The position numbers and the translations under genes were made by a program. Below are positions 1,422-16,588 of a DNA stretch of 64,000 nucleotides, in pieces. The number at the start of each line of letters is the position of its first letter. The first letter of the stretch is position 1. The notes under the pieces are model-generated. The model was not told the DNA's origin and did not search any database. It saw nothing but the letters and a program-made list of their open reading frames with translations. The DNA comes from Geodermatophilus marinus (GTDB lineage: Bacteria > Actinomycetota > Actinomycetes > Mycobacteriales > Geodermatophilaceae): positions 62,001 through 126,000 of the forward strand of contig NZ_QVQH01000009.1 in the NCBI RefSeq assembly GCF_003428645.1, read 5' to 3'.

Positions 1422-1757
1422 TCAGTCCTCGTCCTCGGCCGCGAGCAGCCGACTGACGGCGTCTCGCAGGTGCGGCAGGTCCTGCGTCACGGTGCTGGCG
1501 ACGATCGCGTGGGTCGTGTCGAAGTAGCGGTGCGCCAATTGGTCGCGCATCCGTGCGATCTCGGACCAGGGCAGGTCGGGCTCCAGGGCGAGCAGCTCGC
1601 TCGGGAGCGCCTTGACCGCCTCACCGATCTCGATCAGTCGCACGCGGACGGCGTCGAACACCATGCCGTCCGACAGGTCGCCGCGTCGCACGTAGGAGTC
1701 GATCGCATCGAGAGCAGCCTGCACGTCCAGCAGGCGCTGGCGCCGATAGCGGGTCAC
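1422..1757 (-). CDS. hepT: HepT-like HEPN ribonuclease toxin (DUF86)
   Basis: This 111-residue protein has the size and all-helical look of the HepT/DUF86 HEPN family. Near its C-terminus it has the catalytic HEPN signature R-x4-H-x-Y (RDQLAHRY). HepT toxins are RNases. In the studied systems the partner MntA silences them by adding AMP units to the tyrosine of this motif, and that tyrosine is present here. The ATG overlaps the TGA of the upstream nucleotidyltransferase gene (ATGA at 1754-1757), so the two are translationally coupled. This is the antitoxin-then-toxin order of the family. The toxin appears intact. Confidence 0.9.
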   Translation of the reverse strand: MTRYRRQRLLDVQAALDAIDSYVRRGDLSDGMVFDAVRVRLIEIGEAVKALPSELLALEPDLPWSEIARMRDQLAHRYFDTTHAIVASTVTQDLPHLRDAVSRLLAAEDED

Positions 1758-2290: not shown

Positions 2291-2294
2291 AGCG

Positions 2295-2314
2295 GATCGT
2301 CGATATGGACGATC
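2295..2314. promoter_or_regulatory. Inverted repeat upstream of the HTH-MNT gene, probable autoregulatory operator
   Basis: GATCGTC and its reverse complement GACGATC (2295-2301 and 2308-2314) are separated by six bases, and the site ends five to six bases upstream of the ATG at 2290. A TAT-rich core sits in the spacer. A short symmetric site over the start region fits binding by the HTH part of the encoded protein. This is inference from position and symmetry. Confidence 0.5.
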
Positions 2315-2950
2315 GAGGGATATAGCCCAAAGCTCACAGGGCGGTTGCCCCGCGCGGTTATCGGGCGTCGGCCTCCGGGTTCTGCCGCGCGGCTGGCGCC
2401 GGCCGCTGCGGCCGGTGCCCGTAGTCGAAGCGCTGCTCTTCTCCGGCTCGTCCTCGTCCGCGGCGGCGTGCCGCGCGACCCGGGGCAGGGTGAACTCGGC
2501 CGTCTCGTCGAGCAGGTGCTTGCCCACGTTCCCGTCCGTCCGTGGTCGGTTTCGGCCGAGCGTACGGACGGCAAACCGGCCCGCCACGGGTTTCGCCGCG
2601 AAGGCCCCGGTGGCCTGGTAACGGCGGGACGACTGTGCCGGACGGGACTTCCGGTGGGACGTCGTCCACCCTGGTGCCCCGCCGCGGCCGCGGACACCCG
2701 CCCCGGTCCCGGGCGCAGGCGCCGGTGTCACCGACCCGTGATCCGCGTGATTGAGTCGGTGATCCGGCTGTGCCACCCGTCGGCCCCATGGGCACGGACG
2801 ACGGTGGTGACGTTCCCCGGAGTGGCGCCTGCGGAGCCGCGGAGGGGCTGCCATCGCGCCCTGCGACACGACATCGTCCACGCCCGGGTGCCCTCGGAGA
2901 GGCATTCTTCCCGGGGCGCTACGCGGCCTGTCCGCGGGAGAAGAGGCCGC
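2315..2950. other. Gene-poor spacer inside the defence island
   Basis: About 640 bases lie between the HTH-MNT promoter and the end of abiEii. Several reading frames stay open because of base composition, but none has a recognisable domain, a convincing start or good codon use. It may be the remains of degraded genes. I see no RNA gene or clear repeat in it. Confidence 0.4.
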
Positions 2951-3843
2951 TCACCCCCAGGTGCGCTGGTCGGGTTTCCACGAGCCATCGTCGACGCGGC
3001 CGGACAGGACCGGATCGGTGAAGTCGATGACCGCAGCGAGGAGGTCGCCGAACGCGGTCGGCAGCTCATCCCGGCGGTGCTTGCGCCGCCAGGCCGACCA
3101 GCGGGGCTGAGCGAGCAACGCGTAGCCGTCGAGGACGAGCTCGAGCGGTTGCAGCTCCACGCTGCGGTGACGGGCAACCTCCTCATCGCGGCGCGCAGCT
3201 CGGTCGCGGTCACCGGGTGCCTGCCGGACAAGACGTACACGTCACCGAAGTCCCGCCAGCGGGTGTTGGCCGCCCCGCGGCTGATCGCGGTGACGATCTT
3301 CTCGGCGTGCACCATCGGGACCGGGTAGCCGCCCAGCCGGATGCTGCCACCCAGCAGGCGAGGTACTTCGACCGGTTGCGGCGCCGGCCAGATCGGGTCA
3401 CCGACGTTGACGTCGACGTGGAAGGCGACCCGTGCTTGGGACAGCCGGGCGGTGAGGCTCACCCGCACGCCGGGGTACTCGTCCTCGTCGCGGATGACCT
3501 CGGCGGAGGCGTGCTGCGCGTCGAAGACCAGCCCGTCGTCGCCGTCGGGCGGCGACGTCGCAGCGATGTCGCGGACCAGGTGGAGAAGGGTGGCGGTGTC
3601 GTTGGGCAGCGCCTGGGCCTGGAGGTCGACGTCCCGGGTCGGACGGCGGGCGTCGAAGGCGGCGAGCAGGACACCTCCCTTGAGCACCAGCCTGTCGGCG
3701 TGAGCGGACGCCGACAGCCGCGCCAGGAAGCCCTCGAGCGCGTACAGCGCTTGCAGCTCGTCGGTGGGTCGCTTCTCCCGCCGGGCCATGTTCTGCAGGT
3801 CGAGGTAGGCCCGACCGTGGGCGGTGGCGCGAGTGGGCCTCAC
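2951..3843 (-). pseudogene. abiEii: AbiEii/AbiGii-family nucleotidyltransferase toxin, frameshifted near the C-terminus
   Basis: The gene starts at GTG 3843, which overlaps the abiEi stop (GTGA). The N-terminal part (AYLDLQN, then TDELQALYALEGFL) and the nucleotidyltransferase motif (LVLKGG, then RPTRDVDLQA) are intact. AbiEii toxins transfer nucleotides to tRNA or other RNA. Near 3175-3182 the frame breaks: AAMRR continues in a wrong frame, while the family-like continuation VARHRSVELQPL runs to the stop at 2951 in the next frame. The bases ATGAGGAGGTTGCC look as if one base was lost. About the last 70 residues are therefore out of frame. A sequencing error is the alternative. The antitoxin gene next to it is intact. 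Confidence 0.8.
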
Positions 3844-4442
3844 AGCAGGATCTGCAGCGAACGGCGCAGCGACGCCTCGGCCCGGGGTAGCTGCGCGGCC
3901 ATCTTCAGCAGGGCCGCCGGGGCGGAGCCCCGCCGGCGCAGCCAGCGGCGCAGGGCCTCGTTGCCGAGTTCGGGCCCCTCGTGACCGGCGAGCCGGAAGG
4001 CGTCGGCGATGCACCGCTCGGCGCTGTACAGGCCGATCGTGCGCCCAGCACCGAGCTCGATCTGCTCGCGGCCGAGGTCGAAGGTTGCCGCGTCGAAGTG
4101 GTGCCAGCTGAACGGGGCGTCCAGCGCCGGCGTCCGGGTGCCGCGCGGCAGTGCGATGTCGATGGCCGCGGGGATGTCGTCGATGAGGCCGTGGCGGGCC
4201 AGCGCCGAGCGCAGGCACAGCGTGGCCCGCGGCGCCCGGGTCGCGATGGCGAGCAAGTCGTGGTCGCCGTCGGCGAGGTCGGTACGTCCGTAGAGGCCGC
4301 GGCCCAGCGGTTCGATGAGGTGGTCGTCGCGCAGCCGGTACAGGGTCCAGTCGCTCAGCCCCAGTTGGCGCGCCTGTGCGTAGGTGAACGTCGCAGGCAG
4401 TCGTTCGAGGTAGTTCTGCCGGGCGGTCGTCACGACGGACAC
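3840..4442 (-). CDS. abiEi: AbiEi-family antitoxin, transcriptional regulator
   Basis: This 200-residue protein has the AbiEi layout: an N-terminal winged helix (TFTYAQARQLGLSDWTLYRL) followed by the antitoxin fold with SALARHGL and IDIALPRG. AbiEi represses its own operon and counters AbiEii (type IV toxin-antitoxin). GTG 4442 is preferred because a strong GGGAGGAGG ribosome-binding site lies six bases upstream. A longer frame from a GTG at 4472 would overlap the predicted promoter. The following gene starts at an overlapping GTGA, so the two genes form one operon. Confidence 0.85.
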   Translation of the reverse strand: MSVVTTARQNYLERLPATFTYAQARQLGLSDWTLYRLRDDHLIEPLGRGLYGRTDLADGDHDLLAIATRAPRATLCLRSALARHGLIDDIPAAIDIALPRGTRTPALDAPFSWHHFDAATFDLGREQIELGAGRTIGLYSAERCIADAFRLAGHEGPELGNEALRRWLRRRGSAPAALLKMAAQLPRAEASLRRSLQILL

Positions 4443-4463
4443 GATCCACCTCCTCCCGCAAGA

Positions 4464-4491
4464 ATCGTACACAGATGCCTCTGTCTGTCTA
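4464..4491 (-). promoter_or_regulatory. Predicted abiE promoter
   Basis: On the minus strand a TAGACA -35 element (4486-4491) and a TACGAT -10 element (4464-4469) are separated by 16 bases. They lie 22 bases upstream of the GTG at 4442, leaving a short leader that holds the GGGAGGAGG site. Position and fit to the housekeeping sigma consensus support it; it is untested. Confidence 0.5.
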
Positions 4492-4555
4492 CACTTCCCT
4501 CGGCAGGTTCACCGCGGACCTGAAGCCCACATGAGGACGCGGCCGAGCGTCACCG

Positions 4556-4909
4556 TCAGAGCCACTCGACCGCGCCGGCGATCTCGCGCTCCGTTTCCGC
4601 GGACGCGTTCCGGGCCGCGAGAAGTGCTCCGAGGGCTTGGACCAGCCGGGGCAGACCGCCTGTCGTGCGCGGCCACCGCCGCGCGTTGACGAGCACCAGG
4701 CCGGCGTGCTCGTCCGGTCCGAGCCGCGCGTAGTCGGCGACGTTCTCGGTGACGACGACGCGCCCGTCCTGCTGTCCCCGTCGCGCGACCTGGAGGTCAC
4801 TGCTGCCGACGAGTTCCGGGATCTCCACGACGGCGACGACGTCGTGGCCCTGTGCGCGCAGCTGCTCGGCCAGGCGCCGCGGGTACATCTCGTCGAGCAG
4901 CAGCCTCAC
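4556..4909 (-). CDS. DUF5615 PIN-like protein, probable toxin
   Basis: The 117-residue protein starts MRLLLDEMYP, typical of DUF5615 PIN-like proteins. It has further acidic/basic stretches (GHDVVAVVEI, then VVVTENVADYARL) that match the PIN-type active site D...E...D. These proteins are thought to be RNase toxins paired with small DNA-binding or DUF433-type proteins. The ATG overlaps the stop of the upstream gene (ATGA at 4906-4909), giving the usual antitoxin-toxin coupling. Toxicity is inferred. Confidence 0.8.
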   Translation of the reverse strand: MRLLLDEMYPRRLAEQLRAQGHDVVAVVEIPELVGSSDLQVARRGQQDGRVVVTENVADYARLGPDEHAGLVLVNARRWPRTTGGLPRLVQALGALLAARNASAETEREIAGAVEWL

Positions 4910-5340
4910 CGCGGCGTGCCGGCGACGATCTCCTGCTGCCGGCGCCAGGCCGCCTCCCGCTCGTCGGCGGCCCGCTGGTTGGCCGCGATCCGCTCGTCGA
5001 CCTCGGCGGTGTGGTCGGCGTAGTAGGCGACGGCTGCCCGCACCTGGGCCGTCGTGAGCGACGCCGCTTCGGCTGCCGCCGTGACGGCGTCCGCGGCCCC
5101 CTCCGCCTGCACCGCCCGAAGGGTGCGGATGACCTCGTCGACGTCCGGCCCGGCGACCAGGCCGGCCCGGCGACCGCTGGGCCCGTCCCGGAACGTGATC
5201 GCGGGGTGCGCTTCGCGCCGCAGCGCCTCGTCCAGCAGCCGCTCGATGGTGGCGGACACCGAGGCGCCGTTGCGCCGGGCGACGTCTGCCAGCCGGCGCA
5301 GGACGTCGTCAGGCAGCCGGACCGACCGCGGACTCGCCAT
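4906..5340 (-). CDS. Ribbon-helix-helix antitoxin with DUF433-like tail
   Basis: The 144-residue protein begins with a CopG-like ribbon-helix-helix (SVRLPDDVLRRLADVARRNG, then ATIERLLDEAL). Residues about 45-115 resemble DUF433 (HPAITFRDG, GPDVDEVI, LTTAQVRAAVAYYADH), which commonly partners DUF5615 toxins. It is likely the antitoxin and repressor of the pair. A TACGGT box lies six bases upstream of the ATG, suggesting a leaderless transcript and fixing the start. The C-terminus is charged and may contact the toxin. Confidence 0.75.
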   Translation of the reverse strand: MASPRSVRLPDDVLRRLADVARRNGASVSATIERLLDEALRREAHPAITFRDGPSGRRAGLVAGPDVDEVIRTLRAVQAEGAADAVTAAAEAASLTTAQVRAAVAYYADHTAEVDERIAANQRAADEREAAWRRQQEIVAGTPR

Positions 5341-5346
5341 GGCTAC

Positions 5347-5352
5347 ACCGTA
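5347..5352 (-). promoter_or_regulatory. Leaderless-type -10 box of the RHH/DUF5615 operon
   Basis: TACGGT on the minus strand ends six bases from ATG 5340. The same spacing recurs at other genes of this window (6383, 23749, 38560, 46871, 56150) and is the actinobacterial leaderless arrangement. Confidence 0.5.
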
Positions 5353-5363
5353 GTCACCTGAAG

Positions 5364-6275
5364 TCAGCCGAACCACAGGCGCCAGAGCGTCTGCCTCACC
5401 AGGAGCCGGCTCATCGACTCGAGTGTCGCCTCCCGCGGCGGATGCGGGAGGAGTACCTCGGGCTGCCAGAGCGCGTCCGGGCACAGCGCCGCCACCTCGG
5501 CGGCGACCCGCAGGGCGTCGTCGTCGGTCTCCGGCGGGCGGGTCACCAGCAGCGTGAGGGTGGCGAAGCCGAGGCCCACGACGATCGCGCCGAGCCGGTC
5601 CTCCCAGGACCGGAGCACCGCGGAGACCGTCGCCGGCTGCTGCCACACGTTGAGCGCCCCCAGCCAGCCCGCGACGCCGATGGCGTCGGCGGGACGCCGG
5701 CAGCTGACCAGTCCGATACGCGCGCCGCCCGTGGCCGGCACGAAAGTTTGCACTGGTGGCCCCGGCTGTGCCGGCGCGAGCCCGGGGAACGTGGGGTGGA
5801 ACGGCGCCAGCGGTCCGGTGCCGGGCGCCCAGGGGTCGTTGATCGGCACCAGACTGCCGCGCCACCCGTCCTCGAGCACCTGGCGGACGTCGATCGCCGC
5901 GATCTCGCCCTCGGTCGCGGGGTGGAATTCGCCGCTGTCCCACGGCCGCCCCGAGCCGTCGTACAACCCCTGCAGCAGGAGGGGCCACAGCCCGGTCTGC
6001 GGGAAATGGCCGGCCAGGGTGGCCCACGCCGCGACCGCGTCGGGCACCTCGGCGTCGGTCACCCACAGCACGGCGGGCGGCGGCTCGTCGTCCGTCGTCC
6101 TGCCGACGACCGGCCTGCCGGAGCCCGGCGCGACCGGGCCGAGCCGGAGCGGTCCGACGGGAGGCACGAGGCCGGGTTCATCGGCCCGCGGCGGCTCGAC
6201 GGGGAGGGCCACGCCGTCGCCGACCGGCCGGTCGCCCCAGGAGCCCGAGGGCGCCGGGGAGTAGCGAAGAGTCAC
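5364..6275 (-). CDS. DUF4253 domain protein
   Basis: This 303-residue soluble protein has a C-terminal half that matches DUF4253: IGLVSCRRPADAI, then VSAVLRSWEDRLGAIVVGLGF, then a Pro-rich LWQPEVLLPHPP segment. The N-terminal third is proline- and glycine-rich and probably poorly ordered. DUF4253 proteins are widespread in actinobacteria and have no firmly known function. It sits on the minus strand between the toxin-antitoxin pairs and the divergent helicase, so it may belong to the island or be a passenger. Confidence 0.8.
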   Translation of the reverse strand: MTLRYSPAPSGSWGDRPVGDGVALPVEPPRADEPGLVPPVGPLRLGPVAPGSGRPVVGRTTDDEPPPAVLWVTDAEVPDAVAAWATLAGHFPQTGLWPLLLQGLYDGSGRPWDSGEFHPATEGEIAAIDVRQVLEDGWRGSLVPINDPWAPGTGPLAPFHPTFPGLAPAQPGPPVQTFVPATGGARIGLVSCRRPADAIGVAGWLGALNVWQQPATVSAVLRSWEDRLGAIVVGLGFATLTLLVTRPPETDDDALRVAAEVAALCPDALWQPEVLLPHPPREATLESMSRLLVRQTLWRLWFG

Positions 6276-6394: not shown

Positions 6395-9300
6395 ATGGGG
6401 GACGTGCCGGCCGGTGTCTACGAGCACCTGCTCACCACAAGGTTGACCGATCGACTGCGGCAGATCGACGACCTCCTGGTGCAGCACGAAGGTCTCGACC
6501 CGGCGGACGCGCACGAGTCGCTGACGAGGCACATCGCGGAGATCACCCGTCGCGCACTTCGCGGCGTGGGCGGCAGCGACGGGGCCTCGGTCACCCGGCA
6601 GGTCGAACTGGCCAACGGCATCGTCCAGGCCATCACCGCGCTCGCGCCCGGCGCGGCCACGGTCGAGGACGACGTCGTCCACCCGGCGCGCACGCTGCTC
6701 GCCGTCGCCGCACCCGGCGGCACCCCCGGGCCGCCGTCCTTCCCCGACCGGCCCGGGGTGCCGCTGTCGACCAGCGCCCTGCTGGTCAACGGGCGCGGCC
6801 AGCCGCGCATCGGCCACGAGGTCAACCGCGAGCTGGCCTCCGCCGATCGGGTCGACCTGCTGTGCGCGTTCATCAAGTGGCAGGGCCTGCGGGTCCTCGA
6901 GAAGGGCCTGGCCGACTTCCTCCGCCGCGGCGGGCGGCTGCGCGTCATCACCACGACCTACCTCGGCGCCACCGACCAGCGGGCCCTCGACCACCTCGTC
7001 GGCCTCGGCGCCGAGGTGAAGGTCTCCTACGAGACGCGGACGACGCGGCTGCACGCCAAGGCCTGGCTGTTCCACCGCGCCACAGGTCTGTCGACCGGCT
7101 ACGTCGGCTCGTCCAACCTCTCCGCACCGGCGCTGACCGACGGGCTGGAGTGGAACGTGCGGCTCTCGCACGTCGAGCAGGCGCACCTGCTGCAGACGTT
7201 CGCCGAGACGTTCGACAGCTACTGGGAGGACCCGTCCTTCGAGTCCTACGAGCCGGCCCACGACGGCGACCGGCTGCGGACGGCGCTCAGTGCCGAGCGT
7301 GGCGGCCCGCGTGACCTCCCGATCCAGATCTCGACCCTCGACGTCCGCCCGTTCCCCTACCAGCAGGAGATCCTCGACGAGCTCCGCGCTGAGCGGGAGA
7401 TCCACGGCCGCTGGCGGAACCTCGTCGTGATGGCCACCGGCACCGGCAAGACCGTCGTGTCGGCGCTCGACTACCGGCGCCTGCAGGCCGCCGGGACGGC
7501 GGAGACCCTCCTGTTCGTCGCCCACCGCAAGGAGCTACTGACACAGAGCCGGTCGACCTTCCGGCACGTGCTGCGTCGAGGCGACTTCGGCGAGCTCCTC
7601 GTCGACGGGGAGAAGCCGCGCGAGTGGCGCCACGTGTTCGCCTCGGTCCAGTCACTGGCCCAGCTGGACCTGACCACACTGCCGCCGGATCACTTCGACC
7701 TCGTGGTCGTCGACGAGTTCCACCACGCCATGGCCGCGACCTACCGCCGCCTGCTGGAAAACGTCCAGCCCAATGTGTTGCTCGGGCTCACCGCGACCCC
7801 GGAGCGAACCGACGGCGCGGACGTGCGGACCTGGTTCGACGGCCGCACCGCCGTTGACCTGCGGCTGTGGGAGGCGATCGACCGGGGCCTGCTCGCGCCG
7901 TTCCAGTACTTCGGCCTCCACGACGACGTCGCCCTCGACCGGCTGCAGTGGAAGCGCGGCCGCGGCTACGACGTCGCCGAGCTGAGCAACGTCTACACCG
8001 GGGACGACGCCCGCGTCCGGCTGATCCTGCAGGCGGTCACGGACAAGGTCGACGACGCCGGGCGCATGCGCGCGCTGGGCTTCTGCGTGAGCATCCAGCA
8101 CGCACAGTTCATGGCCGACCGCTTCAGCCGCGCCGGCATTCCCAGCCTGGCCATCACGTCACTGACCAGCCCGGCCGAGCGCGACGGCGCTCTGGCCGCC
8201 CTGCGCGACCGCACGGTCAACGTCCTGTTCACCGTCGACCTGTTCAACGAGGGCATCGACCTGCCCTCGATCGACACGGTGCTGTTCCTGCGGCCGACCG
8301 AGAGCGCGACGGTCTTCCTCCAGCAGCTCGGCCGCGGCCTGCGGCTGGCCGAGGACAAGCCGTGCCTGACCGTCCTGGACTTCATCGGCGCCCAGCACCG
8401 GGAGTTCCGGTTCGACCTGCGCTTCCGGGCGCTCACCGGGACGTCGCGCCGCGGCTTGCAGCGGGAGGTCGAGCAGGAGTTCCCCACGCTGCCGGCCGGC
8501 TGCCACGTCGAGCTCGACCGGGTCGCCCAGCGGATCGTGCTGGACAACATCAGGCAGTCGCTGTCGGTGGCGTGGAAGGGGCTGGTCGCCGAGGCCGCCC
8601 AGCAGGACCGGCCAACGCTGGCCCAGTTCCTCGAGGAGACCGGCATCGAACTCGAGGACCTCTACCGCGGCGCCGACCGCAGCTGGCTGGACCTGCGTCG
8701 GGCGGCCGGGTGGGACGACGGCGAGCCGGGGCCGGATGACAAGGCGCTGGGCGCGGCGATCAGCCGGATGCTCCACGTCGACGACCTCGAACGCCTGCAG
8801 TTCATCCGCGCGGTCACCTCGGCCGGGGTGGAAATCGACGAGACCCCGCGCCTCCGCCGGCTCGCGGCGATGCTGCACTTCTCGCTGTTCGGTGCGCGGA
8901 CGCCGTTCAGCGCCGTGGAGGCGAGCCTGTCCCGGTTGCTCGCCAACCGGGGCCGCGCCGCGGAACTGCGGGAACTGACCGGCGTCCTGCAGGACCGAAT
9001 CCACCGGGTGACGCCGGCAGTCGAGGTGGCCGGCGCTCGCCCCCTGCACGTGCACGCCCGGTACAGCCGCGAGGAGGCGCTCGCCGCCTTCGGGCTGGAG
9101 GACCTCAACGGCACGTGGGGCTCCGGGGTGCGCTGGGTGCCGGGCGACCGGGCCGACGTCTTCTTCGTGACGCTGGTGAAGACGGAGGCGCACTTTTCCC
9201 CCACCACCATGTACGCCGACCACGCGATCTCGCCGACGCTGTTCCAGTGGGAGTCGCAGAACTCGACTGCCGAGAAGTCACCGACCGGCCAGCGGTACGC

Positions 9301-9541
9301 CCACCACCGCGAGATGGGGACGACGGTGCACCTGTTCCTTCGCGAGACGAAGACCGCCGACGGCAGCCTCGGCACGCCGCCGTACCTCTACGCCGGACCG
9401 ATGAGCTACGTGTCGCACACCGGGGAGCGCCCGATGCGCATCCTCTGGCGGCTCGAGCACGCCCTGCCCGCGGACGTCTTCACGGCTGCCAAGTGTCAAC
9501 GACGCTCCAAAGTTGACCCCGTAGCGACGGCCGAAAATTGA
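6395..9541 (+). CDS. PLD-like / SF2 helicase / DUF3427 defence protein, tail altered by IS insertion
   Basis: This 1,048-residue protein has three parts. Residues about 120-300 hold a phospholipase-D-like nuclease domain with the H-x-K core (LHAKAWLF, then GYVGSSNLSAPAL). Residues about 310-660 are a DEAD/DEAH-type SF2 helicase: MATGTGKT (motif I), VVVDEFHH (II), LTATPER (III), FNEGIDLPSID and QQLGRGLRLA (VI). Residues about 680-1,040 are DUF3427, ending YVSHTGERPMRILWRLEHALP. Such proteins are typical of defence islands and are assumed to cut or remodel foreign DNA. An IS21-family element enters right after DVFTAAK and swaps the final two residues for 15 element-encoded ones. The protein should otherwise be intact. 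Confidence 0.9.
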   Translation: MGDVPAGVYEHLLTTRLTDRLRQIDDLLVQHEGLDPADAHESLTRHIAEITRRALRGVGGSDGASVTRQVELANGIVQAITALAPGAATVEDDVVHPARTLLAVAAPGGTPGPPSFPDRPGVPLSTSALLVNGRGQPRIGHEVNRELASADRVDLLCAFIKWQGLRVLEKGLADFLRRGGRLRVITTTYLGATDQRALDHLVGLGAEVKVSYETRTTRLHAKAWLFHRATGLSTGYVGSSNLSAPALTDGLEWNVRLSHVEQAHLLQTFAETFDSYWEDPSFESYEPAHDGDRLRTALSAERGGPRDLPIQISTLDVRPFPYQQEILDELRAEREIHGRWRNLVVMATGTGKTVVSALDYRRLQAAGTAETLLFVAHRKELLTQSRSTFRHVLRRGDFGELLVDGEKPREWRHVFASVQSLAQLDLTTLPPDHFDLVVVDEFHHAMAATYRRLLENVQPNVLLGLTATPERTDGADVRTWFDGRTAVDLRLWEAIDRGLLAPFQYFGLHDDVALDRLQWKRGRGYDVAELSNVYTGDDARVRLILQAVTDKVDDAGRMRALGFCVSIQHAQFMADRFSRAGIPSLAITSLTSPAERDGALAALRDRTVNVLFTVDLFNEGIDLPSIDTVLFLRPTESATVFLQQLGRGLRLAEDKPCLTVLDFIGAQHREFRFDLRFRALTGTSRRGLQREVEQEFPTLPAGCHVELDRVAQRIVLDNIRQSLSVAWKGLVAEAAQQDRPTLAQFLEETGIELEDLYRGADRSWLDLRRAAGWDDGEPGPDDKALGAAISRMLHVDDLERLQFIRAVTSAGVEIDETPRLRRLAAMLHFSLFGARTPFSAVEASLSRLLANRGRAAELRELTGVLQDRIHRVTPAVEVAGARPLHVHARYSREEALAAFGLEDLNGTWGSGVRWVPGDRADVFFVTLVKTEAHFSPTTMYADHAISPTLFQWESQNSTAEKSPTGQRYAHHREMGTTVHLFLRETKTADGSLGTPPYLYAGPMSYVSHTGERPMRILWRLEHALPADVFTAAKCQRRSKVDPVATAEN
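9489..9493. repeat. IS21 target-site duplication, left copy (CCAAG)
   Basis: CCAAG lies immediately left of the element and is repeated immediately right of it (11658-11662). A 5-bp duplication is within the usual IS21 range. Confidence 0.85.
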
Positions 9542-9552
9542 CCCCCTCGTGG

Positions 9553-10326
9553 TCATGCGTCTTCGGTGGCGGCCGCCGAGCGGCCGAGGTCTCGGTCCTT
9601 GAGCCGGTAGCTGTCGCCCTTGAGGGAGATCACCTCGGCGTGATGAACCAGCCGGTCGATCATGGCGGCGGCGACGACCTCGTCGCCGAAGACCTCGCCC
9701 CAGCGGCCGAAGAGCTTGTTGCTGGTCACGATCAGGCTGGCCCGCTCGTAGCGGCTGCTGACGAGCTGGAAGAACAGGTTGGCCGCCTCGGGCTCGAAGG
9801 GCACGTAGCCGACTTCGTCGACGACCAGCAGCGGGTAGCGGCCCAGCCGGCGCAGCTCGTCGTGCAGCCGGCCGGCGTGATGGGCCTCGGCCAGCCGGGT
9901 GACCCACTCGGTGGCGGTGGCGAACAGGACCCGGTGCCCGGCCTGGCAGGCGCGGATCGCCAGCCCGGTGGCCAGGTGGGTCTTGCCGGTGCCCGGTGGC
10001 CCGAGCAGCAGCACGTTCTCCCGCGCGGTGACGAAGTCCAGCGTGCCCAGGTGGGCGATCAGGTCGCGCTTGAGGCCGCGGGCGTGATCGAAGTCGAACT
10101 CCTCCAGGCTCTTCCGCGCCGGGAACCGGGCGGCGCGGATGCGGCCCTCACCGCCATGGGACTCCCGCGCGGAGACTTCCCGCTGCAGGCAGGCCACCAG
10201 GAACTCCTCGTGCGACCAGCCCTGCTCGCGGGCCCGTTCGGCCAGCCGCGGCACCGCCTCGCGCAAGGTCGGCGCCTTCAGCGCCCGGGTCAGGAACGCC
10301 ACCTCCGCGACCAGGTCCCGGCTCAT
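9553..10326 (-). CDS. istB: IS21 helper ATPase
   Basis: This 257-residue AAA+ protein starts at ATG 10326, overlapping the istA stop by four bases (ATGA). It shows Walker A LGPPGTGKTHLA, Walker B LLVVDEVGY and the family pattern ATEWVTRLAEAHHAGRL, with TSNKLFGRWGEVFGDEVVAAAMIDRLVHHAEV near the end split over the sensor region. IstB assembles on DNA and helps IstA choose and capture the target. The length is typical and there is no disruption. Confidence 0.95.
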   Translation of the reverse strand: MSRDLVAEVAFLTRALKAPTLREAVPRLAERAREQGWSHEEFLVACLQREVSARESHGGEGRIRAARFPARKSLEEFDFDHARGLKRDLIAHLGTLDFVTARENVLLLGPPGTGKTHLATGLAIRACQAGHRVLFATATEWVTRLAEAHHAGRLHDELRRLGRYPLLVVDEVGYVPFEPEAANLFFQLVSSRYERASLIVTSNKLFGRWGEVFGDEVVAAAMIDRLVHHAEVISLKGDSYRLKDRDLGRSAAATEDA

Positions 10327-11564
10327 GCCACGCCTCCGTCGGTGAGCCCGAGCGCGGTGTCGTAGTCGCTCAGTGGCCGGATCTCCACCTCTCCGGCGGG
10401 CGGAGCCGGGCGCAGCAGCCCGATCCGGGCCGCGCGCAGCGCCCGGGCGGCGGCCACGTGCTCCTCGGCGGAGATCGTCTGGTGGCGGGCCCAGGCCCGG
10501 TCGTGGTCGGCCACCAGCCGCCCGTCGCCGAGCACGCGCACCCGGGCCAGGTCGGCGACGACCTCGACCCGGCGGCCGATCACCGCCGGATGGACGGAGT
10601 AGTCGTTGCCGTCCAGCCGCACGTAGTGGTCCCGAGCCAGGCGCGTGCTGCTGCGCCAGCCGGTGGCCGGAGCGATCGGCGGCAGGGTGAGCATCCGCTC
10701 CCGGTCGGCGGCGATCCGGTCGGTCGGGGCGCACCCCAGCGCCCGCCGGGGACGGGTGTTCACCATGGCCAGCCAGGCGCCCAGTTGGGCGTTGAAGTCG
10801 GCCGGGCCGGTGAACGTCCGCCCGGGCAGGAACGAGCGCTCGAGGTAGTCGTGCAGCCGCTCGACCAGGCCCTTGGCCTCGGGATCGGCCGGCCGGCAGA
10901 TCAGCACCTTCGTGGCCAGCGTGCCGCGGAAGCCCTGGCAGTCGGCGGTGAGCTCGCTGCGGCCACCGCGCCAGCGACCGACCGCACCCTCACCGTCCCA
11001 GACCAGCACCCGCGGCACCGCCCCGAGGCCGGCGAGCAGCTGCCACCAGCCCGCAAACAGGTCCTCCGCGTTGCGCGAGGGGATCAGCACGCCGGCCGCC
11101 CACCGGGAGTAGCCGCAGACCATCGTCAGCACCGGCAACTGCTTGGCGGTGCGGCTCTGGCCGCAGCCGACCGGCAGCGTGATCGGCGGGAACCACAGGT
11201 CAAACTGGGCGATCTCGCCGGCCGCGTACTGCGTGCGCGACGCTGGATCGGGCGGCAGGTAGACCGGTCGCAGCTCGGCCACCCGCTTCTTGAGCACGGT
11301 CATCGACCGGCTCCAGCCGATCCGCTCGGCGATCACCGTCGCCGGCATCGTCGGGAACGCCTGCAGCAGCTCCCGGATCCGCGGCTCGACCTCATCGACG
11401 ATCGACCCCTGACCGACCCGCTCGTACTTCGGCGGCCGGTCGGCCCGCAGCGCCGTTCGCACCGTGTTCCGTGAGACGCCCAGCACCCGGGCGATCTGCT
11501 TGATCGGGATGCCCTCGGCCCGATGCAGCCGGCGGATCTCCGCCCAGTCCTCCACGGACAACAC
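10323..11564 (-). CDS. istA: IS21 transposase
   Basis: This 413-residue DDE transposase starts at GTG 11564. An N-terminal helix-turn-helix (IKQIARVLGVSRNTVRTAL) precedes the RNase-H-like catalytic core. The likely catalytic acids are D in AQFDLWFP, D in VLVWDGEGAVG and E in AKGLVERLHDYLE. A C-terminal beta-rich part (YVRLDGNDYSVHPAVIGRRV) is typical of IstA. It is translationally coupled to istB. A weak GACGAGG precedes the start. Confidence 0.93.
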   Translation of the reverse strand: MLSVEDWAEIRRLHRAEGIPIKQIARVLGVSRNTVRTALRADRPPKYERVGQGSIVDEVEPRIRELLQAFPTMPATVIAERIGWSRSMTVLKKRVAELRPVYLPPDPASRTQYAAGEIAQFDLWFPPITLPVGCGQSRTAKQLPVLTMVCGYSRWAAGVLIPSRNAEDLFAGWWQLLAGLGAVPRVLVWDGEGAVGRWRGGRSELTADCQGFRGTLATKVLICRPADPEAKGLVERLHDYLERSFLPGRTFTGPADFNAQLGAWLAMVNTRPRRALGCAPTDRIAADRERMLTLPPIAPATGWRSSTRLARDHYVRLDGNDYSVHPAVIGRRVEVVADLARVRVLGDGRLVADHDRAWARHQTISAEEHVAAARALRAARIGLLRPAPPAGEVEIRPLSDYDTALGLTDGGVA

Positions 11565-11657
11565 CTCGTCCCTCCCCGGCTCGGCTCGAGCCAGGGTCTC
11601 GGGAGGGGGTCAGTTTTCGAGTGTCGCGAGGGGGTCAGTTTTCAGGCGTCGTCGACA

Positions 11658-11662
11658 CCAAG
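11658..11662. repeat. IS21 target-site duplication, right copy (CCAAG)
   Basis: This matches 9489-9493. The bases that follow (GTGGCCTGA, 11663-11671) are the displaced natural Val-Ala-stop end of the DUF3427 helicase gene. Confidence 0.85.
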
Positions 11663-11671
11663 GTGGCCTGA
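11663..11671 (+). pseudogene. Displaced 3' end of the DUF3427 helicase gene
   Basis: GTG GCC TGA encodes Val-Ala-stop in the frame that follows GCT GCC AAG at the left junction. It is orphaned by the IS21 insertion. Confidence 0.8.
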
Positions 11672-11736
11672 GCGCCCGTAACGGATCCTGAGCAGCCCAG
11701 CCGGGGCTGTCGGCACGCGCTGGTACTCGTGACGAC

Positions 11737-12258
11737 ATGCCGGCCGATAGCCCCCGCTTGGACCCCGGCCCTCACCCTGGGGCCACGAGCGCCGAGATCT
11801 CCCGCCGCATGAGCCGGCTCAGAAGACGGGACAACCGACCGGAGATGGCTGTCAGGCGGCTGCTCTACGCCCGGGGGCTGCGCTACCGCGTGTGCTTCCG
11901 GATCCCGGGGCAGCGGAGACGGACGATCGACATCGTCTTCGTCGGGGCACGTCTGGCGGTCTACATCGACGGGTGCTTCTGGCACGGCTGCCCCGAGCAC
12001 CAGCACATGCCCAAGGCGAACACCTCGTGGTGGGTCCAGAAGATGGCCATGAACCGGGCTCGCGACGCAGCCGCCACGGCTCAGCTCGAAGGCCTGGGCT
12101 GGACGGTCCTGCGATTCTGGGAACACGAGGATCCCAAAGCCGTCGTCACGACGATCGTGGCTCGCCTGAACGACGAGACAGCGATCCAGCGGCTCACCTC
12201 CGAAGCGACATCGGAAGTCGCAGCTCACGCGGAGACGCCCGCGTGCGCACGGCGGTGA
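11737..12258 (+). CDS. vsr: Very-short-patch-repair (Vsr)-type endonuclease
   Basis: This 173-residue protein matches Vsr: ISRRMSRLRRRDNRPEMAVR at the start, the catalytic acid in RRTIDIVF, and the zinc/His cluster IDGCFWHGCPEH, followed by WTVLRFWEHED. Classical Vsr nicks T:G mismatches made by deamination at cytosine-methylation sites. No cytosine methyltransferase lies in this window. It sits inside the defence island downstream of the helicase and, without the IS21, would start about 65 bases after it, so it could belong to the same unit. A defence-nuclease role is possible. Confidence 0.92.
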   Translation: MPADSPRLDPGPHPGATSAEISRRMSRLRRRDNRPEMAVRRLLYARGLRYRVCFRIPGQRRRTIDIVFVGARLAVYIDGCFWHGCPEHQHMPKANTSWWVQKMAMNRARDAAATAQLEGLGWTVLRFWEHEDPKAVVTTIVARLNDETAIQRLTSEATSEVAAHAETPACARR

Positions 12259-12322
12259 CATGGAGATCCCTCGGCCAGGTCTGCCGTAGGCAACGCGGTT
12301 CAAGCGGTCGGGCAGATGGACC

Positions 12323-14053
12323 TCAATCGAGCCGTGCGACGGCCCCGAGCAACCATCCGCACGCGGCGTTGTGCTCCTCGAGGGCCGCCGGCGACGGTCG
12401 GCAAGGAGGCGATGCCGGTCGGCGCACCATCCGCTCGTCGAGCTCCGCGTACAGCGTCCCGTCCAGCTCCGGCGAGATGCGGATGCTCCCGACCGGCAGC
12501 ACGGTGAGCAGGTGCAGGTCGAACAGCGTGTGGATGTCCGCCCGCAGCAGCAGCCCGTTGGTCACCGTGTTGTGCAGCTGTCCCCGGTACGGGCGGATGT
12601 GCGCCGCCTCGAGCACAGCTTCTGCCGCCGTCCCCGTGACCGCGCACGCCCCCTCGTAGGCGGCGAGAAGGCCGTCCCGGAACGCCTTCTGGCCCCGCCG
12701 CTGGACGATGGCCCGGTGGGCCTTGTTCCGCTCGTCGTAGCCGGGCGGGATGGCTGGGTCCTCGAACTCCTCGTCGCCGGCCGGACGTCCGGACCCGTCG
12801 AGGTTTCGCACCGGCAGCGTGAGACGAGGCGGGGAGCCCGACACCGTGACGCCGGGGAGCGTGGCAAGGACCGCACCGACGAAGGAGCTGCGGTGCCCGA
12901 GGGTGGGGACGTCGACGGTCACGGCTCCGTCGCGCCGGATGAGGTCCAGCCCGCGCTGCACCATGGCGATCGGCACCGGCTGCCCCTCGGGTGATCGACC
13001 CGTGGCCACCAGGACCCTGGGCGGCTGCACCGCGAGGACCGTGTTCTCCTGACCCGTCGCCGTCGAGAGCGTCCGGCCGATGAGGCTCTCGAGCAAGCTC
13101 GTCACATCCGGGCCCGACTCCGGGGCCGCGGGGACGGCCAGCAGCCCGAGCGCCGCCAGGGTCCGGTCACGCGCCTCCGCATCGGCCAGCGCAGCGGCGA
13201 GCCTCTCCACCGCGCGCCGCCGGAACTCCGCGTCGCTTCGGACCCGTGCGTGGACCTCACGGGCCAGGCCGGCGACCGGGTCCTCGCGCCGGACGAAGTC
13301 CCGGCCACCGCGACCGACCGGGCCCGGCGGCAGCGGGGACAACTGCCACCACGCTGACCGGCGAAGGGCGAACCAAGGCAGTTCGGGATCGGGCTCGCTC
13401 TCACCGACGGCGAACGGCCGCAGCAGCGCACGCAGCTCGTTCCGGACCTCGGAGAAAGGCCGCAGCCGCTCGCGGCCACGCACGGCCGCCGAGATCGCCC
13501 ACAGCAGGACGAGCTGCTGGTAGGGAGCCGGCTTGCCGAGCTGCCGGTCGACCGTGAGGTCGCCCAGGCTCGCGAGCAGCGGGTCGGCTTCAGCATCGCT
13601 GCGCCCGGGGGTCGACGTCGTCCTCCGCTCCCCGTCGAGACGGAGGCCGGCGCCGGAGCTCTTCGCGAGCAAGTCAGCCAGGTGCTCCGCACGGCTCGGA
13701 TCGACGCGCGGGAACCGCGGCAGCTGGATGGTGCCGATCCCGACCGTGTCCTCGATCTCGCCGCCGGACATGTACAGCGGCTCGGCGGGTTCGTCGAGAA
13801 CCTCGATCGGGATCAGCGCAGTGTACCGCTCCGGCTCCGGCCAGGGGACCTCCTCGACGCCGCGGGGTCGACGCGCGTCAGCCGTCGCGCGGCAGCGCGC
13901 GAGCCACCCCCGCCGGGACCCCCAGATGAAGAGCTCATCACCTCGGCGAACGCCGAGCGCGGTGACGGTATTGGAGCCGAACAGCGACTCCCGCTTGCAG
14001 ATCTCCCAGTTGTCCCGCTGCTCGAAGGAGATCGATCCGACCCAATGCGTCAC
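12323..14053 (-). CDS. EVE-like / sulfur-binding-like / HNH restriction endonuclease (type IV)
   Basis: The 576-residue protein starts at GTG 14053. Residues about 1-90 (THWVGSISFEQRDNWEI, then RRGDELFIWGSRRGWLARC) look like an EVE/PUA-type modified-base reader. Residues about 170-250 (PAPYQQLVLLWAISAA, RLRPFSEVRNELRALLRPF) match the sulfur-binding domain of ScoMcrA-like enzymes that recognise phosphorothioate DNA. The C-terminal part is an HNH nuclease: CAVTGT, LEAAHIRPYRG, HNTVTNGLLLRADIHTLFD. Together these suggest an enzyme that cuts modified foreign DNA. The EVE assignment is less sure than the other two. Its target modification is unknown. Confidence 0.85.
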   Translation of the reverse strand: MTHWVGSISFEQRDNWEICKRESLFGSNTVTALGVRRGDELFIWGSRRGWLARCRATADARRPRGVEEVPWPEPERYTALIPIEVLDEPAEPLYMSGGEIEDTVGIGTIQLPRFPRVDPSRAEHLADLLAKSSGAGLRLDGERRTTSTPGRSDAEADPLLASLGDLTVDRQLGKPAPYQQLVLLWAISAAVRGRERLRPFSEVRNELRALLRPFAVGESEPDPELPWFALRRSAWWQLSPLPPGPVGRGGRDFVRREDPVAGLAREVHARVRSDAEFRRRAVERLAAALADAEARDRTLAALGLLAVPAAPESGPDVTSLLESLIGRTLSTATGQENTVLAVQPPRVLVATGRSPEGQPVPIAMVQRGLDLIRRDGAVTVDVPTLGHRSSFVGAVLATLPGVTVSGSPPRLTLPVRNLDGSGRPAGDEEFEDPAIPPGYDERNKAHRAIVQRRGQKAFRDGLLAAYEGACAVTGTAAEAVLEAAHIRPYRGQLHNTVTNGLLLRADIHTLFDLHLLTVLPVGSIRISPELDGTLYAELDERMVRRPASPPCRPSPAALEEHNAACGWLLGAVARLD

Positions 14054-14123
14054 TCATCCGCGCCGTCCGGTGTTCGCAGCGGGTGAGGGCATGTCCTGGT
14101 GGAAGCCCGTTGGGCCGTGCTCG

Positions 14124-14555
14124 CTACGCCGACGCGGTCCGCGCCGGCCGCCCCACTATGCGAGCGCGTCCGCGACGGCGGGGAGTGACACTCCGGATCG
14201 GGGCTCCTACGCCTTGGGAGGCGCCACGCTCCGATGGGCAAACCGGCGGGAAGCGGCGCTCGTTGGCCTCGAGCTTGTCCGCCGCCGCCTGAGCGAGGTC
14301 GACGCCGACGACGTCCGCCAGGCGCAGCAGGTACAGCAGGACGTCGGACATCTCCTCGGCCAGGCGACCGTTCAGCGGCTGCTCGCGGACCGCCGTCGCC
14401 TGCTCGTCGTGCTGGAGCCACTGCAGGAGCTCGGCCAGCTCCCCCACCTCGCCGACCAACGCGAGCGCCAGGGACTTGGGATCGTGGAACCGCGCCCAGT
14501 CGCGGGCCTCGGTGAAGGTGCGCATGCGACGAGTGAGGTCCGCGATGTCCGACAC
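14124..14555 (-). CDS. MazG-like nucleotide pyrophosphohydrolase
   Basis: This 143-residue all-alpha protein contains the MazG-like core: FHDPKSLALALVGEVGELAE with the E-x2-E metal pair, then RLAEEMSDVLLYLLRLADVVGVDL with the E-x2-D pair. It hydrolyses nucleoside triphosphates to monophosphates and pyrophosphate. The start is GTG 14555 (VSDIADLTRRM). The last 35 or so residues after NERRFP are low-complexity and basic, unlike relatives, so the natural 3' end may have been lost. It lies upstream of and parallel to the HNH enzyme. MazG-like enzymes often accompany DUF3427 helicases; that this one depletes nucleotides in defence is inference. Confidence 0.85.
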   Translation of the reverse strand: MSDIADLTRRMRTFTEARDWARFHDPKSLALALVGEVGELAELLQWLQHDEQATAVREQPLNGRLAEEMSDVLLYLLRLADVVGVDLAQAAADKLEANERRFPPVCPSERGASQGVGAPIRSVTPRRRGRARIVGRPARTASA

Positions 14556-14683
14556 GGGCCGAGTATCGGCACGGGACCGGCCGACCCGCCCCACTACTGT
14601 CGGGGGACGCGGCCCGACAGGCTTCCGCTCTCCGGACAGGCCTCCACCCGCACGAGTCGATTCGTGCTGCCCGGAGACTGTCC

Positions 14684-16588
14684 TTGCCCCTGCTGCGCAC
14701 CTCGGCGCGAGGCCTCGCCGACCTGGCCCGTGAGGGCCGCGTCGGCGCCGTCCTCGCCGAGCAGATGTCCTTCCAGATGAAGCGCCGGGCCTCGGCCGCG
14801 GAGGTGCGCTCCTGGGACGCCAGCCTCCGCGTCCTCGCCGACGACCTCCTCCAGGCCGGGCTCGACCGGGTCGAGGTCCTGCTCGAGTACCAGCTGCCGC
14901 TGAGCAGCAAGCGGATCGACGTCGTCCTGGCCGGCCGGCACCCGCGCCGCGACGCACCCTCCTACGTCCTCGTCGAGCTCAAGCAGTGGACCCAGGCGCA
15001 CGGGTTCGAGGACGACGCCGAGCTCGTCGTCCAGCCGTCGTACGGGCCGCGGCCGATCCTGCACCCTGTGGCCCAGGTGCGGTCCTACGCCGAGTACCTG
15101 CTCGACTTCACCGCCGTCCTGCACGGGACGACCGACGTCCTCGCCGGCGCCGCGTACCTGCACAACGCGACCACGGGCGGGGTCGGCGCGCTCTTCAACT
15201 ACCCGCAGGACGAGCTGGGCCGGCTGTTCACCGGGCAGAACCGCGGTGAGTGGCTCGACTTCCTGCGCGGCCGGCTCGCGCCGAGCGACGGCAGCGTCTC
15301 CGCCGACCGGCTGCTGCACTCGGCGATCGCGCCGAGCAAGCAGCTCATGGCGGTCGCCGCGGAGGAGGTCCGCCGGCGGGAGCAGTTCGTCCTGCTCGAC
15401 GAGCAGCGGGTGGCCTTCGAGCTGGTGATGCACGAGGTCGAGAAGGCCCGCGCCGGGGACCACAAGAGCGTGGTGATCGTGTCCGGCGGCCCGGGGAGCG
15501 GGAAGAGCGTCATCGCCCTGTCGCTGCTGGGTGAGCTGAACCGGCGCGGCCGGTCGGCGATCCACGCGACCGGGTCCCGCTCGTTCACCCAGACGCTCCG
15601 GAAGGTCGCCGGCCGGGGTTCGCGGCAGGTCCAGTCGCTGTTCAAGTACTTCAACAGCTTCATGGACGCCGACAGCAACGGCTTCGACGTCCTCATCGCC
15701 GACGAGGCGCACCGGCTCCGCGAGACGTCGGCGAACCGGTGGACCAAGGCCGAGCACCGCACCGGCAAGGCCCAGGTCGACGAGCTGATCGACGCCGCCC
15801 GGGTGCCGGTCTTCCTGCTGGACCAGAACCAGGTCGTACGACCCGGCGAGCTGGGCACCGTCGAGGACATCGAGAAGGCAGCGCGCGAGCGCGGGCTGGC
15901 GGTGCACCACGTCGACCTCAGCGCCCAGTACCGCTGCGGTGGATCCGAAGCGTACATCGACTGGGTCGAGCGGCTGCTCGGGCTCAAGCCCGGCGGCCCG
16001 GTGCCGTGGGACGGCGACCCCAACTTCGAGGTCCGGGTCGTCGACTCACCGTCGGCCATGGAGGTCGCGCTCGGCGCGAAGCTGGAGGAGCGCTACGGGG
16101 CTCGGATGGCCGCCGGCTACTGCTGGCCGTGGAGCGACCCGCGCAAGGACGGCTCGCTGGTGCCCGACGTGCAGATCGGCGACTGGGCGCGGCCGTGGAA
16201 CCTCAAAGGCGAGCGGTCGGTGGGCGGCGCTCCCCCGTCGGCGCTGTGGGCCAGCGAGCCGGCCGGCTTCAGCCAGGTCGGCTGCGTCTACACCGCGCAG
16301 GGCTTCGAGTACGACTGGAACGGCGTGCTCATGGGACCGGACCTGGTGTGGCGCACCGACCGGTGGGTCGCCGTCCGCTCGGCCAACCGCGACCCGGACT
16401 TCCGCAACACCAAGCGGGTGAGCGACCAGGAGTTCGACGCCCTGGTACGCAACGTCTACAAGGTCCTGCTCAGCCGCGGCATGCGAGGAACGCTCCTCTA
16501 CTCGACGGATGCGGAGACGCAGGACTTGCTCCACTCGCTCGTCGGCGGGACTCCTTCGTGGGCTGCAGCAGGTCCCGGCGTTCTGTAG
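14684..16588 (+). CDS. Nuclease-fold plus DUF2075 / Schlafen-group-3-like helicase
   Basis: This 634-residue protein is read from TTG 14684, with GGAGA seven bases upstream; no better ATG or GTG is in frame. Residues about 45-170 show an acidic/basic pattern (KRIDVVLAG, then YVLVELKQW), i.e. D...E-x-K of the restriction-endonuclease fold. Residues about 230-630 are DUF2075: Walker A GGPGSGKSVIA, IADEAHRLRE, VFLLDQNQVVRPGE, QYRCGGSEAYIDW and YTAQGFEYDWNGVL. It is probably an ATP-driven DNA or RNA nuclease. It is the last gene of the island before the truncated chromosomal gene. Confidence 0.87.
   Translation: MPLLRTSARGLADLAREGRVGAVLAEQMSFQMKRRASAAEVRSWDASLRVLADDLLQAGLDRVEVLLEYQLPLSSKRIDVVLAGRHPRRDAPSYVLVELKQWTQAHGFEDDAELVVQPSYGPRPILHPVAQVRSYAEYLLDFTAVLHGTTDVLAGAAYLHNATTGGVGALFNYPQDELGRLFTGQNRGEWLDFLRGRLAPSDGSVSADRLLHSAIAPSKQLMAVAAEEVRRREQFVLLDEQRVAFELVMHEVEKARAGDHKSVVIVSGGPGSGKSVIALSLLGELNRRGRSAIHATGSRSFTQTLRKVAGRGSRQVQSLFKYFNSFMDADSNGFDVLIADEAHRLRETSANRWTKAEHRTGKAQVDELIDAARVPVFLLDQNQVVRPGELGTVEDIEKAARERGLAVHHVDLSAQYRCGGSEAYIDWVERLLGLKPGGPVPWDGDPNFEVRVVDSPSAMEVALGAKLEERYGARMAAGYCWPWSDPRKDGSLVPDVQIGDWARPWNLKGERSVGGAPPSALWASEPAGFSQVGCVYTAQGFEYDWNGVLMGPDLVWRTDRWVAVRSANRDPDFRNTKRVSDQEFDALVRNVYKVLLSRGMRGTLLYSTDAETQDLLHSLVGGTPSWAAAGPGVL

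Follow-up and report, generated by a model that had tools for sequence, protein, structure and literature searches.

A candidate modular type IV restriction cluster with a DUF2075 helicase and a MazG-like pyrophosphohydrolase in Geodermatophilus marinus

Between positions 6395 and 16588 of a 64,000-nucleotide stretch of Geodermatophilus marinus DNA (the window; contig NZ_QVQH01000009.1, positions 62,001 to 126,000), five genes encode a predicted SauUSI-like helicase-nuclease, a Vsr-type endonuclease, an HNH protein, a MazG-like nucleoside triphosphate (NTP) pyrophosphohydrolase and a putative DUF2075 nuclease-helicase that we designated D20. We read the locus, with a probability of about 50%, as a modular, modification-directed (type IV) restriction cluster that is built on a recurrent D20-MazG pair and interchangeable nucleases for modified DNA, in which Vsr is a bystander and an IS21 insertion sequence (IS) arrived later. 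Of its elements, the identities of the genes, their domain make-up and motifs, the IS insertion and the co-localisation of the families in other genomes are supported by the data. All five genes had been named in a preliminary description of the sequence and each of them is present (Table 1), with family matches far above chance, for example to PADLOC mREase_IV (E = 5.7e-288) and Pfam SLFN-g3_helicase (E = 1.6e-90). The prefixes G, L and C denote genomes, loci and contigs; the window is G000:C71:62001-126000, in a genome of 5.2 Mb.

Predicted proteins of the cluster

The first gene encodes a single chain that contains a phospholipase D-type (PLD) nuclease (PLDc_2, residues 170-277), a superfamily 2 (SF2) helicase (ResIII, 318-471; Helicase_C, 554-651) and a C-terminal DUF3427/target-recognition domain (877-1030), with the motifs HAK at 220, TGTGKT at 348 and DEFH at 440. 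The PADLOC model mREase_IV (PDLC03659) covers residues 113-1032, and SauUSI (PDB 7clg_A) matches residues 126-674 (E = 4.7e-78) with a further weak match at the C-terminus. Nuclease, SF2 ATPase and target-recognition region follow in the same order as in SauUSI, which passages of PMC7913695 describe as a translocating nuclease that is dimeric, is driven by ATP and has a recognition domain of SRA fold; DUF3427 was earlier predicted to bind modified DNA, according to part of PMC7159879. The window protein differs from SauUSI in being about 100 residues longer at its N-terminus, in a weakly similar C-terminal domain, and in lying beside D20 in some relatives. These matches predict a type IV restriction enzyme of the SauUSI-like kind. 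Such enzymes are known and often occur without the other families, and by analogy with its relatives the window protein would cut modified DNA. Homologues split over two frames, and probably broken, were observed at G007:C6:42004-45098, G017:C1:2685448-2688539 and G031:C11:564624-567717. At two further loci (L071:9039-10576 and L078:4174-5718), an SBD-HNH gene (SBD, sulfur-binding domain) beside a gene of GIY-YIG_2 type adjoins a SauUSI-like helicase.

The preliminary description held that the HNH enzyme probably reads modified DNA, and the SBD match, the structural match to VcaM4I and the HNH profile lend support to that view. HNH_2 was the sole Pfam domain found in the protein. Residues 159-286 matched the SBD of SprMcrA (PDB 7ccj, E = 7e-9) and that of ScoMcrA (E = 1e-4), and the HNH part matched the HNH domain of VcaM4I (PDB 6yex, E = 1.2e-4). 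An AlphaFold2 (AF2) model from 15 sequences, with a mean predicted local distance difference test score (pLDDT) of 67, was confident to about residue 130 (ten-residue blocks at pLDDT 72-96) and over the HNH part. Foldseek placed VcaM4I first (E = 3.6e-5) and YTH domains next, which points to a probable EVE/YTH-like N-terminus. With an N-terminal EVE/PUA-type fold by Foldseek and a C-terminal HNH by profile, the protein falls among the EVE-HNH enzymes, at a predicted template modelling score (pTM) of 0.34 for the whole model. Its top structural match, VcaM4I, shares the EVE-type N-terminus and the HNH C-terminus and lacks the sulfur-binding-like domain and the further middle part that lie between them here. 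SprMcrA and ScoMcrA (SBD-HNH and SBD-SRA-HNH enzymes) match the window protein over its sulfur-binding-like part; the window protein differs from them by an EVE-like domain in front, the lack of an SRA domain and a leucine in place of pocket residue Tyr78. Four of the five sulfur-pocket residues of SprMcrA, as defined in part of PMC7470945, are kept (Y31, Q32, P79 and A82), as counted on an alignment over a poorly modelled region.

The HNH protein scored 67.4 bits against NCBIfam NF045808 (PT-DNA_restrict), below the cut-off of 180, and a DndE search of the host genome for phosphorothioate modification gave no match, nor did the control search. The word EVE was absent in a term search of PMC7461809, a screen of SBD/SRA-HNH enzymes. 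By analogy with these relatives, the HNH enzyme would be expected to cut modified DNA. Two siblings, in Blastococcus (L110:7100-9292, 731 aa) and in G018 (L088:8964-11186, 741 aa), carry an added SRA domain (E = 6.5e-49 and 3.6e-47, respectively) and are EVE-SBD-SRA-HNH proteins with three modification sensors per chain.

The MazG-like protein scored 28.2 bits against PF03819 (cut-off 22) and matched DCTPP1/RS21-C6 in the PDB (E = 2.4e-22). The metal-binding acids of this deoxycytidine triphosphate (dCTP) pyrophosphatase (E63, E66, E95 and D98) and the cytosine-pocket residues W47, W73 and Y102 are kept in the window protein, whose residue 38 is Met in place of His; these acids and aromatic residues are likewise kept in 38-39 of 40 D20-linked MazG sequences, among which some genomes occur twice. 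According to passages of PMC4491611, human DCTPP1 is more effective on 5-methyl-dCTP than on dCTP, and modelling placed W47 and W73 in contact with the methylated cytosine of the former. Apart from residue 38, the window MazG differs in being bacterial and encoded beside restriction genes. Its residues suggest a DCTPP1-like enzyme in which the 5-methyl-dCTP pocket is retained.

For the last gene, described beforehand as a nuclease-DUF2075 helicase, the helicase part was confirmed by the SLFN-g3 profile. No nuclease profile in Pfam, PADLOC or NCBIfam matched the N-terminal part, so that the nuclease label rests on a D...ExK pattern, which we take to be the PD-(D/E)XK nuclease motif. Its residues D51, E70 and K72 (codon 14768 being residue 1) were invariant in 22 D20 sequences, and the N-terminal part is regarded as a PD-(D/E)XK-like, putative nuclease. 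The AF2 model of D20 had a mean pLDDT of 80 and a pTM of 0.76, and a Foldseek search with the whole chain returned RecD2, SLFN11 and Dna2 as partial matches with low whole-chain TM-scores; a PDB sequence search gave nothing at 0.01. The Pfam matches were to the SLFN-g3 helicase and other NTPase profiles, and the Schlafen core (AlbA-like) RNase was not found among them. PADLOC profiles of the candidate system PDC-S41 (1.2e-18), of Nhi (2e-8) and of AbiO (2.7e-7) matched D20 weakly, in part, and mostly over the helicase; D20 differs from these by its PD-(D/E)XK-like motif and, often, a MazG partner. Searches of 72,556 plasmid and 50,697 phage records returned its homologues in 38 and 4 of them, respectively. 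A homologue of 63% identity lies at MT836681.1:2154-3935, on a 9-kb sequence from the gut that bears the label Bacteriophage sp. Pairs of adjoining D20-type genes, with 59-61% identity to the query in the first gene and 41-43% in the second, occur in G214, G229, G320, G362, G371 and G413, a possible two-subunit form. Neighbouring D20 copies, mainly in Streptomyces loci, mostly had no nearby MazG.

Table 1 Features of the locus, in positions of the window
Feature	Position	Strand	Basis
PLD + SF2 helicase + DUF3427 protein	6395-9541	+	Domain profiles
IS21 element, 2,164 bp	9494-11657		istA/istB, inverted ends, CCAAG duplications
istB, helper ATPase of IS21	9553-10326	-	NCBIfam NF038214
istA, transposase of IS21	10323-11564	-	NCBIfam NF033546
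Vsr-type endonuclease, orphan, probable bystander	11737-12258	+	TIGR00632
HNH protein, 576 aa, putative modification-dependent endonuclease	12323-14053	-	Pfam HNH_2, PDB, Foldseek
Probable EVE/YTH-like sensor domain, HNH protein residues ~1-135	13649-14053	-	AF2, Foldseek
Sulfur-binding-like domain, HNH protein residues 159-286	13196-13579	-	PDB sequence match
MazG-like NTP pyrophosphohydrolase, DCTPP1/RS21-C6 type, GTG start	14124-14555	-	PF03819, PDB
Divergent intergenic region, MazG / D20	14556-14683		
D20: PD-(D/E)XK-like N-terminal part + superfamily 1 (SF1) helicase (DUF2075 / SLFN-g3)	14684-16588	+	Pfam, motif
D20 start options	TTG 14684 or ATG 14765	+	

Recurrence of the gene families in other genomes

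Each family was searched for in 146 relatives and was found, own genome included, in 48 (helicase), 19 (HNH), 84 (Vsr), 37 (D20) and 36 (MazG) genomes. Rows were dropped for 12 of the 48 helicase genomes, as fragments or other helicases (G005, G009, G014, G019, G042, G050, G051, G094, G099, G100, G112 and G117), for one of the 37 D20 genomes (G007, a 43-residue piece) and for four of the 36 MazG genomes (weak matches in G005, G050, G074 and G083); none was dropped for HNH or Vsr. Pairs were counted over genomes that hold both genes, with the own genome excluded and secondary rows of kept genomes merged or left out. D20 and MazG lay within 2 kb of each other in 18 of 22 relatives, and D20-HNH and MazG-HNH in 7 of 9 each. 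The corresponding counts were 8/19 for helicase-D20 (11/19 within 10 kb), 3/6 for helicase-HNH and 3/10 for helicase-MazG. Vsr served as the control and was found within 2 kb of the helicase in 0/21 relatives, of D20 in 1/22 (G001), of MazG in 0/18 and of HNH in 1/11 (G036). Fisher tests against these controls gave p values from 2e-7 (D20-MazG) to 0.03 (helicase-MazG), which serve as guide values for genomes that are related. No other genome among the 146 relatives held all five families together. The preliminary description had offered a single multi-layer system or a set of separate ones, to be refuted by a lack of co-conservation outside this strain. Such co-conservation was observed for four of the families (helicase, HNH, MazG and D20), so that the proposal is not refuted on this ground and is partly supported; it was lacking for Vsr and for the full five-gene set.

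A class-wide draw of 296 genomes, own included, contained D20 in 38 and MazG in 74, and the two genes lay within 2 kb in 15 of the 28 other genomes that hold both. In three genomes of 1.3-1.5 Mb, a D20 of 31-33% identity and a MazG were in tandem, 48-50 bp apart. At L189:7150-11397, in a 1.38-Mb genome with 47% GC at that point, a D20 of 33% identity has a divergent MrcB_N-NOV_C gene 75 bp upstream, and MazG and a gene for a 282-aa protein follow it.

The neighbourhoods of 80 named actinobacterial D20 loci, the best 80 of 309 confirmed, were also compared. When the 1,152 genes called in these loci and the window were clustered without labels, the commonest neighbour families (window counted) were MazG (25 loci), the SauUSI-like helicase (10) and EVE-HNH (8); later-ranked families occurred at no more than six loci each, SBD-HNH at five and Vsr at four. 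Within 2 kb of D20 lay MazG in 25/80 loci, HNH in 16/80, the helicase in 9/80 and Vsr in 1/80, and at 14 of the 80 MazG was present without HNH or helicase. The place of the HNH gene was filled elsewhere by EVE-HNH, SBD-HNH or EVE-SBD-SRA-HNH genes. Gene order also varied: helicase-MazG-D20 (G022, G044), helicase-D20 (G013, G021, G033, G069), MazG-D20-helicase (G086, G113 and Kribbella L117), D20 followed by EVE-HNH (Janibacter, Humibacillus, Ornithinimicrobium, Serinicoccus, Gordonia and Rhodococcus) and D20-EVE-HNH-MazG. The same partners in differing orders argue against one inherited block. A further recurrent partner was sought among the nearest 109 of 194 unlabelled D20 neighbours (up to 1,000 aa long and no more than 1.5 kb away), where no Pfam family occurred more than three times and no PADLOC model more than once. 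PADLOC identified one neighbour, at L108, as an additional type IV enzyme that was absent from the initial labels.

The Vsr gene, the IS21 element and the surroundings

The window Vsr resembles the Vsr mismatch endonucleases (TIGR00632, 104.4 bits; cut-off 97.85) and differs from them in having no adjoining methyltransferase. The earlier remark that this Vsr lacks its methyltransferase is right locally; the genome's one found C5 methyltransferase (PF00145, C2:118840-120000) has a Vsr of its own 85 bp away, the two spanning C2:118840-120447. Eleven genomes with Vsr matches of at least 64% identity were checked for the enzyme. A convergent C5 methyltransferase lay within 0.7 kb of Vsr in five (G009, G075, G027, G064 and G045) and one lay 1.4 kb away in G057; the nearest in G038 was about 9 kb off, beside another Vsr, and none was found in G008, G028, G051 or G068. 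The window HNH gene takes the convergent position that the C5 methyltransferase holds in these relatives. At the closest locus, G016 (94% identity in D20, 79% in HNH), about 250 bp separate helicase and HNH, with no room for Vsr. Membership of Vsr in the cluster was rejected for its near-absence within 2 kb of the other families, and the gene is best interpreted as a remnant or a passenger, a bystander.

The preliminary description placed the five genes together with little space between them; it missed a complete IS21 element between helicase and Vsr. The scores of istB (NF038214) and istA (NF033546) are above the NCBIfam cut-offs, the ends at 9494 and 11657 form inverted repeats, and a 5-bp target duplication, CCAAG, is present at 9489-9493 and 11658-11662. 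A second copy, 92% identical, lies at C17:12801-14909. The element is a later insertion into the helicase gene, within its final codons: native codons stop at 9493, and the protein reads ...AAK followed by 15 residues encoded by the IS. When the flanks are joined without the IS, the helicase ends in ...AAKVA* and its gene stops 65 bp short of the ATG of Vsr. The helicase C-termini of relatives read AKVA in 16 of 26, and ARVA, AKIA or ARLA in six more, one gene being listed twice. Disruption of the helicase by the IS was considered and ruled out, as no more than two terminal codons are displaced.

Upstream in the window (3-6275, - strand) lie genes for a NERD-UvrD-like helicase, a HepT/MNT pair, an AbiEii/AbiEi pair, a DUF5615 protein with an RHH protein, and a DUF4253 protein.

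Competing explanations and significance

Several observations weigh against a modular restriction cluster. None of MazG, HNH and helicase lay within 2 kb at 41 of the 80 D20 loci, and MazG and a nuclease partner were not significantly associated across those loci (Fisher p = 0.12, or 0.07 with L108, for loci that are not independent). Helicase and D20 were more than 2 kb apart in 11 of the 19 relatives with both, and restoring the dropped rows gave 8/22 for helicase-D20, 3/15 for helicase-MazG and 18/22 for D20-MazG. Five of the restored helicases lie 0.8-1.1 kb from Vsr, which raises helicase-Vsr to 5/33 and makes the control weaker. These five (G019:C12, G042:C41, G050:C3, G094:C46 and the second helicase of G130, C1:1484903-1487198) are shorter, with 33-36% identity that is confined to the helicase part; we regard them as probable members of another helicase family, which makes a recurrent pair of its own with Vsr, and the 0/21 control applies to the SauUSI-like helicase alone. 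Because the MazG pocket is equally conserved in 4/4 D20-distant sequences, it does not set the D20-linked ones apart; DCTPP1 residue H38 is not conserved; and the SBD part of the HNH protein is poorly modelled, in a model with the low whole-chain pTM given above. The host has a C5 methyltransferase of its own, and therefore some 5-methylcytosine contexts must be tolerated. Part of the clustering may come from shared insertion sites; island effects do contribute, because gene families recur around the loci and defence-type genes lie upstream in the window.

Those effects would be the whole explanation if a SauUSI-like enzyme, an EVE-SBD-HNH enzyme, a D20-MazG pair and an orphan Vsr had accumulated at one insertion hotspot of a defence island and did not work jointly, an account that we consider possible and somewhat doubtful. 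It is favoured by the NERD-UvrD, HepT/MNT, AbiE and DUF5615/RHH genes just upstream, by ECH, ABM and RNase_H_2/AAA helicase families that recur around the loci and suggest hotspots, by single D20 neighbours that match assorted PADLOC defence models, and by the helicase and D20 often occurring alone. However, Vsr, a common defence-associated gene (84/146), is rarely near the other families, MazG, helicase and EVE-HNH are top-ranked among D20 neighbours, and the partners remain constant while gene orders vary across taxa. It is unlikely that D20-MazG is instead a stand-alone, two-gene defence in which MazG depletes dCTP on infection and D20 attacks replicating phage DNA, the nucleases being frequent neighbours. 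The pair is the tightest one both among relatives and class-wide, it stands in tandem in the three small genomes, MazG occurs without HNH or helicase at the 14 loci given above, and passages of PMC13092281 place MazG among the predicted, unvalidated defence domains of DefensePredictor; yet genes of the HNH and helicase families are enriched next to D20, and even the distant tandem pair in L189 adjoins an MrcB_N-NOV_C gene.

A housekeeping role of D20-MazG in nucleotide sanitation and DNA repair, rather than defence, appears improbable. MazG enzymes are called house-cleaners in parts of PMC3855555 and PMC4491611, and the pair is present in small genomes, whereas D20 is patchy (38/296 class-wide and 37/146 relatives, own included) and has the homologues in plasmid and phage records noted above. 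A single five-gene, multi-layer anti-phage system that includes Vsr is very improbable and mostly refuted: a gap of 65 bp separated the helicase from Vsr, on the same strand, before the IS insertion, but in G016 the space from helicase to HNH is too short for a Vsr gene, and Vsr lies near the other families almost nowhere else. A five-gene operon was likewise ruled out, by the strands (+,+,-,-,+), by the IS21 element and by the non-co-localisation of Vsr.

In a modular type IV restriction cluster, the EVE, SBD and DUF3427 sensors would recognise base or backbone modifications in incoming DNA, which the HNH and PLD nucleases would then cut, and D20 would unwind and degrade cut or single-stranded DNA. 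MazG would hydrolyse modified dCTP, which would keep host DNA free of the attacked marks, deny modified dCTP to phages, or both. The clean-up role of D20, the substrate and role of MazG, and any cooperation among the proteins are inferred, and the dCTP-removal step is the one with the most interest and the least proof. Type IV enzymes spare their host solely because host DNA lacks the mark that they read. A more ambitious and rather unlikely form of the proposal is a two-tier immunity, in which DNA sensors (EVE, SBD, SRA, MrcB_N and DUF3427) would destroy modified DNA, MazG would remove 5-modified dCTP so that the cell's own genome stays unmarked, and D20 would clear the fragments; MazG would then act as a nucleotide-pool 'antitoxin' for type IV restriction.

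Literature searches returned no paper that joins DUF2075 with MazG or with 'defense', DUF2075 itself being rarely named, and a search that paired MazG, type IV restriction, nuclease-helicase and Schlafen found no such pair by title. The EVE-context survey PMC7641849 reports EVE-HNH enzymes, and MazG, Schlafen and DUF2075 were absent from it in a term search; PMC10853773, on phosphorothioate systems, names no MazG, Schlafen, EVE, DUF2075 or DUF3427. The system of PMC12923530 was considered as a match and rejected, being in the passages concerned a different one with a GIY-YIG type IV enzyme. The single enzymes of the window are of known kinds or close variants of them; within the scope of these searches, no earlier description was found of the recurrent grouping in which a DCTPP1-like MazG and a DUF2075 nuclease-helicase are joined by various nucleases for modified DNA.

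These results provide a first genomic context for DUF2075. The recurrence of the gene families in other actinobacteria hints at a layered defence arrangement, and the link between modified-DNA nucleases and a MazG that probably retains a 5-methyl-dCTP pocket would make the handling of modified nucleotides by the cell, from salvage or from lysed phage, testable with few genes.

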